From: an uncultured Bacteroidia bacterium
Lineage (GTDB): Bacteria > Bacteroidota > Bacteroidia > NS11-12g > UBA955
NCBI GenBank assembly: GCA_943788195.1
Contig: CALSPH010000001.1
Coordinates: forward strand, 557,673-621,672
DNA length: 64,000 nucleotides
Direction: 5' to 3'
Positions 60,588 to 64,000 of this stretch are shown piece by piece. The translations under genes were made by a program, and so were the position numbers. Every line of letters starts with the position of its first letter. Positions within the stretch are counted from its first letter, which is position 1. The notes under the pieces are model-generated. The model ran no database searches. It worked only from the letters and a program-made list of their open reading frames with translations, and was not told the origin of the DNA.

Positions 60588-62831
60588 CTAACTATTAAAC
60601 CAATAACTTAACTTAATGGTGAGCGCTCTGTTTTTAACACTCAAGAATGGGAAATTGGGGTTTCCAAAAACCATGGCTTGATTGGGTAAGTAATTCTCGC
60701 TGAATACAATAAACAAATCGCTCATGGGAGCAAAGCGATATTGTAAGCGTGCATTGATATTCATATTTTCAGCTTGGGTATTGTATTGCAGGAACAAAGT
60801 TGAGAATAATTTCCTGCTAAATGAGTACTCAATTTTTGGACCAATAAGCGTTAAGGCCGAGTTGGTGTTAGGCGAGGGTAAATTTACTTGGTCTCTTCTA
60901 AAATCCAACGAAACAACTGCCTTAGGTTGCATTCGAAGCACAAGTCCAGCTGAGGTGGAAATTTTTTCACCACTATAAAAGGACCCGTAACCTGCGCCAA
61001 CATAGTAACTGAGTCTCTTTCTTCCGTTGCTGGTGAACGAAGCACTTTGTTCTTGATAGAAATATCTACGCGCAGCCAAATTCCCGCTTTTCCCAGTAAC
61101 ATCCACAGGGTAATAAAGCAAGGTATTGTAGAAGCGATATGCCATATTCAGCTTAGCGGAATTTTGGAAATAGATATTACTGAAGATAGAATTCGTCATA
61201 TCATTAATTTGAAAAGAAGAATCGGTATAGGTGCTGTTGTACCAAGCTACATCAACTTGATTTATAAGCTTCGATTTTGGATAAAACCTTCTGCGTAATT
61301 CAGGTTCTAGGCGCCAATAACTCTGTCTATAGGTGATATTATTGGCCCCGTCACGTATAAATATGCGTGGGGTAAAACCAACCTCAGCATTGTAATTTTT
61401 TCCTACATATTCATGATTCCACATCACAAACCAATCGCGGGTTTGACGCATTAACCAAGATGCATGGGTTTGACTTTGTTCTTTAATATTACCATTTAGA
61501 AGTGATTGATGATAGAAAAGCTTACCCCGCCATTTATTGCTTTTTGATACCAGATTGTAGTCCAAGCCGAGTACCGTATTTGAATATCCCGAGGTAGAAT
61601 CCAGTTGTTTGACCCATTTGTTTACGGCTATACCTGCAATGTTGCTCGCTGCAAATACTTTGCGTTGAAATGCTAGCACACTATTATTTGTGCTGGCATT
61701 ACCCTCTGATTTTTGTTCTGTGGTTTGCATGTTCATCACACCGATGCGCCATTTGGTGCCAATTTTACCACTTAACCTTGCACCTGCAATGATGGGAATT
61801 TGTTTCCCTTGGTTTAATCCAATTCTCCTGGAAAAGAATGGGCGGATTTGCCGAAAGCCAAAACTGCCAAAAAGGTCACTATTTTCAATAAAAAACTGTC
61901 TGCGTTCAGGAAAGAATAAACTGAATCGCGTTAAATTAAGCTGTTGAACATCCACGTCCACTTGAGAAAAATCGGGGTTAACGGTTAAATCAAGATTTAA
62001 TGAAGAAGTAAGTACAATCTTAGCATCAAAACCTGCATTCAACTTATTGACAGCTGGCGTATTTGCACCATAATCTTTGGAGGTTGAGGTATTGAGGTAT
62101 GGTATAACGGCAGCATTTATACCTGATTTTTTCGGATTACTTTGCCAGTCTAATTTACCCATATGACTTAGCACAGCGATGTTTAAGATACGAGGAACCG
62201 GAAACCAGGTGCTGTTCTCATTGGTTTTTAAATTGTTTCGTGCAAAGTTGATACGCCAATGCATAAGGTGCTCATTGTATCGGATACTTTTAAATGGAAT
62301 TTGAAATTCTGCAGTCCAATATCCATTCTCTCTGCGTGTTTCGGCATACCATTTATTATCCCAAGCGGTAGTAACTCCAAAAGATCCGCCATTTTCTATA
62401 AGGCCCTCACGTTGGGCACCAAAGGGATTAACGCCAAATGAAAATCCATTGCTATAATCTAAAAAAGGTTCAATGCTCACCACAAATGCATCACTCCTGG
62501 GGTAGCTCCAATCCCGTTTCAAGGATTGAACTACGTAGTCTTTCTGAATACTGGTGTCGTAACAAATGGCAAAAACATATAAGTTTTCATCATCATGCAA
62601 TAACCTAACTTGAGTTTTGGTTTCAGCAAATGCAGTATCATATGGGAAGTTTTGAAAAAAGCTGTCTGCTACCGATGCATTATCCGCCCAAGCTGCTTCA
62701 CGGTCTAAGCCATCTATGGTAATGACTTCTTGCGTAAAGGCTGATTTTATGTGATACCGACTGGTATCAATATCTATGGCATTCACTTTGCCAAATAAGG
62801 AAAGGAAACCTAAAAATAATCCAAAGCGCAT
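60588..62831 (-). CDS. DUF5916 protein with CBM9-like domain
   Basis: Exported protein: signal [17 protein letters not shown] (ATG 62831 chosen over TTG 62846). Residues about 20-220 form a carbohydrate-binding family-9-like sandwich ([60 protein letters not shown]). The rest is the DUF5916 region, a membrane-barrel-like run ([44 protein letters not shown]) ending [15 protein letters not shown] with an aromatic C-terminus. 748 aa. It probably lies in the outer membrane; substrate unknown. Confidence 0.8.
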
Positions 62832-62846
62832 CAGATGTACCACCAA

Positions 62847-64000
62847 TTAATCTTTTCTACGTAATTTTTGCTTTTGGGTTGCACTCATTCGGTTGATTGA
62901 ACTATACAAACCGTATTTATTCGCTGGCACTAAGAACTTAAGCCGTTGGCCTCTAACAATGGTATTACTTCTTAGTTTATTCCAACGTTTGACATCGGCT
63001 AAATTAGCATCGAATAAATCGGAGAGTAAATAAAGCGCATCCCCTTTCTTGACGGTATAAAAAACCCATCGGTTGCCTGTGGCGTTCTGTCCATTTGCAT
63101 CAGTCTTAATTGGGGCATCGGGATCGATTTTCTTTCCAGCAGAATCCAAAACGGTGAGCACTCCGTCCATCACAAGAACTTGATATTTTGTTGAGTCAGG
63201 TCTAAATTTATCAATAAGTTTTTGTACTCGAACCATCGAGTCTTGGATCCGCTTTTGCTCTGCTTCTTCAGCTAGTTTTATTAAATAAGCATTAAAATTG
63301 GCCGTTTTTGATTTGGGTATTGTAAAGCAATGTGGATGTGGAAGGTGTGGAACAATTTGCTTTCTGTATTGTCTATTTAACTTAAGCATGAGCGACATTG
63401 GGGTTTGCGTTGCAGTTGCCAATTCCCGAAGTGAAAAAGTCTGTGGAGTGCATAAGGTGTCTAGCTCAGGAAGGATGAAATTGTCAGGGGCAATATGGTG
63501 TTTGTCAAAATAATTTGTGACATACAAGAATGCCATAAATCGGCTTAAATCTTTTCTGTGCGAAGACTCAATGAATGGTTCAACCGTAAAATAATCCATA
63601 GAATTACTGGCCATACGAATTGCTTTGTTCATTTCAACAGGTCCACAGCTGAATGCTGCTATGGTAAAATACCAATCGCGATAAATATGAAAAAGGTCTG
63701 CCAAGGCTTTGGCAGTCGCTCGAGTGGATGCTATAATGTGTTTACGTTCGTCCACATAAGAGTTGATCTTAAGGCCATATTTCACCCCAATATAAAAGGG
63801 CAATGGCCACATGCCTGTTTCACCGCTGCTTGCATTGAAATCATTCTCTAACCAAGTATTTGATAATGCGATTAGTTGAAGCTCTGAAGGCAACCCATAT
63901 TCGCCAAAAATTTTGGAAATAGTATCTTGGTAGAAGTTGTATTTACCAAGCGCCAATGGAGTTTTGCTGTTTCCTAAAACCTCTTTGATCTCAACTTGTA
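62847..64000 (-). CDS. Transglycosylase-like LysM protein, probably inactive (partial)
   Basis: The frame runs off the right edge: residues VEIKEVLGNSKTPLALGKYNF precede the track start, so the gene begins outside. The first ~140 visible residues match the lytic-transglycosylase (SLT/MltD-like) domain: YGLPSELQLIALSNTWLEND, GETGMW, YGLKINSYVDERK and DWYFTIAAFSCGPVEMNKAI. The position of the catalytic glutamate (usually A-V-I/V-E-S) reads A-L-S-N-T, so the enzyme is probably inactive. The C-terminal LysM domain is VFYTVKKGDALYLLSDLFDANLADVKRWNKLRSNTI, ending KQKLRRKD. It may bind peptidoglycan as a scaffold. The start lies beyond 64000. Confidence 0.75.
   Translation of the reverse strand, partial: QVEIKEVLGNSKTPLALGKYNFYQDTISKIFGEYGLPSELQLIALSNTWLENDFNASSGETGMWPLPFYIGVKYGLKINSYVDERKHIIASTRATAKALADLFHIYRDWYFTIAAFSCGPVEMNKAIRMASNSMDYFTVEPFIESSHRKDLSRFMAFLYVTNYFDKHHIAPDNFILPELDTLCTPQTFSLRELATATQTPMSLMLKLNRQYRKQIVPHLPHPHCFTIPKSKTANFNAYLIKLAEEAEQKRIQDSMVRVQKLIDKFRPDSTKYQVLVMDGVLTVLDSAGKKIDPDAPIKTDANGQNATGNRWVFYTVKKGDALYLLSDLFDANLADVKRWNKLRSNTIVRGQRLKFLVPANKYGLYSSINRMSATQKQKLRRKD

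Follow-up and report, generated by a model that had tools for sequence, protein, structure and literature searches.

A gatA-linked family of MltD-like proteins in Bacteroidia that lacks the catalytic glutamate and was probably kept as a non-cutting partner of murein enzymes

The stretch of DNA analysed here (the window, 64,000 nucleotides, G000:C1:557673-621672) ends inside a gene for an apparently exported protein that resembles the lytic transglycosylase MltD and carries asparagine at the position of the catalytic glutamate. Our preferred reading, to which we assign a probability of roughly 60%, is that the protein is a pseudo-lytic transglycosylase, inactivated once in an ancestor and since then kept as a wall-binding partner or regulator of murein enzymes.

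Within the window the reading frame spans positions 62847-63998 on the reverse strand and includes LIALSNTWLENDFNASSGETGMW, SYVDER and AAFSCGP; the features are listed in Table 1. The complete gene (G000:C1:620522-621826, reverse strand) extends to the window-equivalent position 64154 and comprises 435 codons (435 aa) from a GTG start codon that shares 4 bp with the stop of gatA, and its N-terminus is an apparent signal peptide. Pfam recognised an SLT domain in the protein at 24.5 bits (cut-off 21.3) as well as the C-terminal LysM domain at 35.7 bits. Although Pfam made no LysM call in residues 231-280, the modelled secondary structure leads us to regard this segment as probably LysM-like. The NCBIfam MltD model NF008050 scored 67.1 bits, below its cut-off of 508; however, a paralogue that has the glutamate also fell under it (155.5 bits), so the cut-off does not discriminate here. 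An AlphaFold model covering the part of the protein that lies in the window (mean pLDDT 86.3, pTM 0.62) found its best structural match in MltD of Pseudomonas aeruginosa (8rhf, E 1.3e-13). The protein thus shares with MltD (PDB 8rhe/8rhf/8rhi; NF008050) both the fold and the order of SLT followed by LysM, but it differs in having no catalytic glutamate, an eroded catalytic network, a clade-specific tail and usually one Pfam LysM domain rather than two.

Table 1. Positions in the window of the pseudo-lytic transglycosylase gene, its parts and the next gene
Feature	Position	Strand	Basis or remark
DUF5916 protein, next gene after the pseudo-lytic transglycosylase, same direction	60588..62846	-	sub-threshold CBM9-like match
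Pseudo-lytic transglycosylase gene, clipped by the window edge	62847..64000	-	residues 53-435; open reading frame
Conserved C-terminal tail, residues 417-435	62850..62906	-	tail motif in 51/62 family members
C-terminal LysM domain, residues 366-406	62937..63059	-	Pfam PF01476, 8.4e-09
Putative LysM-like beta-alpha-alpha-beta unit, residues 231-280	63315..63464	-	model secondary structure; invariant N260, P269, P280
Degenerate SLT domain, MltD-type, residues 68-222	63489..63953	-	Pfam SLT on residues 109-184; alignment to 8rhe; AlphaFold model similar to MltD
AAFSCGP, degenerate version of the active-site motif A-Y-N-x-G	63639..63659	-	N553 and G555 equivalents invariant in relatives with the glutamate, varied here
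Asn99 codon AAT replacing the catalytic Glu	63858-63860	-	ungapped alignment to paralogue with the glutamate and to MltD

Lytic transglycosylases act through a single catalytic acid (PMC7083599). When IALSNTWLENDFNASSGETGMW was set against ISIIESALNPTARSRAGAMGLW of P0002, a paralogue from the same genome that retains the glutamate, the two aligned ungapped with Glu opposite Asn99. An earlier note on this DNA had placed asparagine at the catalytic site from the clipped gene and suggested alignment with MltD/SLT domains. Matching a profile of the family to MltD of P. aeruginosa (8rhe) gave the same ungapped register and again put Asn99 at the glutamate, bearing out that placement. In Slt70 residue names (S487, Q496, M498, T501, Y552, N553 and G555), whose equivalence we take from the ungapped alignment, the damage extends beyond the glutamate. 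Specifically, Pro117 stands in for the active-site Gln of GLWQ, and Phe168 and Ser169 stand in for the Tyr-Asn pair of AYNxG, all at positions that vary across the clade. SYVDER and AAFSCGP are both present, but the latter, which the earlier note called kept, is not an intact block, since against the active motif A-[A/S]-Y-N-x-G it has Tyr552 changed to Phe and Asn553 to Ser. The glutamate of WLEND was considered as an active-site residue and rejected: in the alignment Glu103 sits on the asparagine of ES-x-x-NP, and just 9/62 members of the family have Glu there. A sequencing or frame error as the cause of the loss was also rejected, as the same state recurs in 62 sequences.

These 62 glutamate-less members were collected by a class-wide search together with extra loci and alignments, and a profile scan of genome contigs with a narrower family alignment gave 17 loci. 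For comparison we used sets of 59 or 61 relatives that have the catalytic glutamate (hereafter E-type). All 57 genomes searched in the protein's own family and order contained a match to it, E-type paralogues being included among the matches, and the best 30 of these, the window protein among them, were all without Glu. The 62 members represent at least 32 genera in four GTDB families of Bacteroidia, which we label f1 (14 genera), f2 (seven), f12 (nine) and f40 (two), plus three loci without a family code. Position 99 in these proteins is N, L, S, V, A, T, I, Y or W. The earlier note had also proposed asking whether orthologues share the replacement, and they do: the position is acidic in 0/62 members and Glu in 61/61 E-type sequences, a count that is descriptive only, because members were defined jointly by clade and by absence of the glutamate, so that the independent evidence lies in the tree and the shared locus.

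Comparison of the two sets showed which positions are eroded. In 59 E-type relatives, the equivalents of the catalytic Glu, Ser487, Gln496, Thr501, Tyr552, Asn553 and Gly555 are invariant and that of Met498 is kept in 55/59; at the equivalents of S487, Q496, M498, T501, N553 and G555, which are 93-100% uniform in the E-type, the 62 glutamate-less members are eroded, the widest variation falling at positions 99, 108, 117, 119, 122 and 169. P89, G114, W116, R137, W161, N260, P280 and LysM residues W391 and N392 are present at about 95-100% in both sets alike. Loss of the catalytic residue is common to the orthologues while the fold is conserved, which is the pattern of a pseudoenzyme, and from these sequences we infer strongly that lytic activity is absent. 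It is very improbable that the protein still cleaves glycan through a migrated or different acid, such as Glu103, Asp135 or Asp153. Asp135 and Glu136 are conserved, and 87% of members have an acidic residue at position 153, compared with 31% of E-type relatives; however, Asp135 and Glu136 are conserved to an equal degree in the E-type and hence are no replacements, Glu103 is unconserved, and the Ser487, Gln496, Met498, Thr501 and Asn553 equivalents have been eroded too.

The genomic setting links the two forms. About 28 other families of Bacteroidia encode an E-type MltD-like protein directly behind gatA, the same synteny as for the pseudo-lytic transglycosylase. Its median length is about 510 aa, and each of the five examples examined carries two Pfam LysM domains. 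In f1, f2, f12 and f40 the locus instead encodes the glutamate-less protein, with a median of 424 aa and one Pfam LysM domain in most of those examined. L172 (G094, f40), a glutamate-less member, retains two LysM domains and is perhaps an intermediate state. gatA lay directly upstream in 15/15 loci of one set and no more than 500 bases away from 53 sequences without the glutamate overall; nine further such sequences had no gatA in the stretch examined, some stretches being short and some genes having moved. L093 and L094 (f12, g161) and L097 and L098 (f1, g10 and g3) are members away from gatA, where either the gene or gatA has moved.

Two trees were built, a quick one of 100 rows and a careful one of 64 rows from which ten active-site columns had been removed. 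On both, the split between sequences with and without the glutamate amounts to one change of state; the long-branched rows from f40 and f12-g161 had no sure placement in the first tree and were excluded from the second. In the careful tree the split had a support of 100/100 and was found in 200/200 bootstrap trees. Since Bdellovibrionales rows fell on the E-type side, the simplest reading would be a single loss of the glutamate, at the gatA locus, followed by long maintenance. Replacement of an active gatA-linked copy by an ancient glutamate-less paralogue would fit the synteny equally well and would leave the single origin unchanged. Separate losses in each family were not supported, there being one change on both trees.

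The glutamate-less family is maintained by purifying selection. Between related species, dN/dS was 0.035-0.12 for pairs with unsaturated dS, similar to E-type pairs, although these values are rough as dS was often >1. Some lineages do seem to have dispensed with the gene: in G035 (L101, G035:C6:37000-48000) an SGNH gene directly follows gatA with no lytic transglycosylase gene between them, and in G039 a gatA-linked copy was not found. These two f2 species of genus g15 have apparently lost the gene, which can therefore be dispensable. A decaying pseudogene on its way to loss might leave such gaps; that account is nevertheless scarcely credible for a frame that is open in 32 genera, with dN/dS of 0.04-0.12 and invariant fold residues.

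The best-supported reading is the one suggested in the earlier note, a pseudoenzyme that binds peptidoglycan and carries LysM at its C-terminus, given a glutamate that is gone clade-wide, an eroded site, and a fold and LysM domain that are under purifying selection. We propose that an MltD-type gene at gatA lost its catalytic glutamate and catalytic network once, in the common ancestor of the members now found in at least four families of Bacteroidia, and that its product was retained by purifying selection as a peptidoglycan binder that does not cut. The LysM module or modules would anchor it to the wall, possibly together with the old glycan groove, although the groove may have ceased to bind because several of its residues have changed. 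It would most likely act through protein contacts, and a role as scaffold, docking partner or regulator of the active murein enzymes of the same cell is plausible in view of the active paralogues in the same genome and of the Ape1-like gene in f2. Candidate targets would be E-type MltD-like paralogues, of which the window genome encodes two (P0002 and P0003), and, in f2, the product of the next gene, described below; both the partner itself and the sense in which it would be regulated are hypothetical. Alternatively, the SLT fold could serve as a stable spacer for LysM in a passive wall-binding or structural protein without regulation. We consider this unlikely. The strongest conservation does lie in the fold core and LysM, and gatA is the only gene neighbour common to all lineages; the clade-specific tail motif and, in f2, the repeated presence of an Ape1-like gene next door, however, suggest a more specific task without being decisive. 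The tail motif, Y..IN.M after the LysM domain, occurs in 51/62 glutamate-less members vs 1/61 E-type relatives.

Precedents for such a role come from two directions. LtgA of Neisseria meningitidis associates with Ape1 in a complex and non-enzymatically increases its activity towards an artificial substrate, the two having no shared substrate (PMC7083599); a lytic transglycosylase fold can therefore act without cutting, and here too such a fold is linked to a peptidoglycan O-acetylesterase. The glutamate-less family resembles this kind of function stripped of its catalytic side. LtgA, however, is an active enzyme with a different architecture, whereas the link of the pseudo-lytic transglycosylase to an Ape1-like protein consists of gene adjacency, in f2 only. 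Among LytM peptidases, inactive relatives are well known as regulators, and inactive LytM proteins regulate autolysins, lytic transglycosylases included (PMC10336132). EnvC, NlpD, DipM and ActS (PMC10336132, PMC8360153) likewise are exported proteins with a peptidoglycan-hydrolase fold and no catalytic site, but their fold is unrelated (M23 peptidase) and their regulation of hydrolases is demonstrated, whereas for the pseudo-lytic transglycosylase regulation is hypothetical. We tentatively suggest that the family could parallel, with an SLT fold, the inactive regulators of the LytM type, as an ancient family that activates or targets murein enzymes such as the MltD-like paralogues and, where present, the Ape1-like protein. 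If confirmed, the family would show that the SLT fold can have a function apart from cutting, as LtgA and Ape1 hint. A single locus offers a natural comparison between about 28 families with the E-type protein and four without the glutamate. A literature search, with subscription journals mostly outside its scope, returned no relevant paper on inactive, pseudo or degenerate lytic transglycosylases.

Inspection of the neighbouring genes yielded no partner gene common to all lineages other than gatA. The DUF5916 gene that follows in the window is the next gene in several f1 genomes too. In f2 the next gene usually encodes a membrane-anchored, Ape1-like SGNH hydrolase, and from coordinates, by hand count, the two genes are adjacent in 19/22 f2 genomes. 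The best match of the hydrolase profile was PDB 4k3u/4k7j (4e-24), and 4K7J is Ape of N. meningitidis, a peptidoglycan O-acetylesterase (PMC6174289). In the hydrolase at L041:8147-9736 (forward strand) and its f2 equivalents, the Ser, Asn, Asp and His blocks are invariant in the alignment. At the thresholds used no Ape1-like gene was found in the window genome, and such a gene was rejected as a universal partner. The window genome does carry an MBOAT gene (L182:3616-6090, G000:C2), with the gene for P0003, a short lytic transglycosylase of the E-type, about 6 kb away. The frame after it is short and, by eye, SGNH/DltD-like, and the pair is possibly involved in acylation of the wall or of a polysaccharide.
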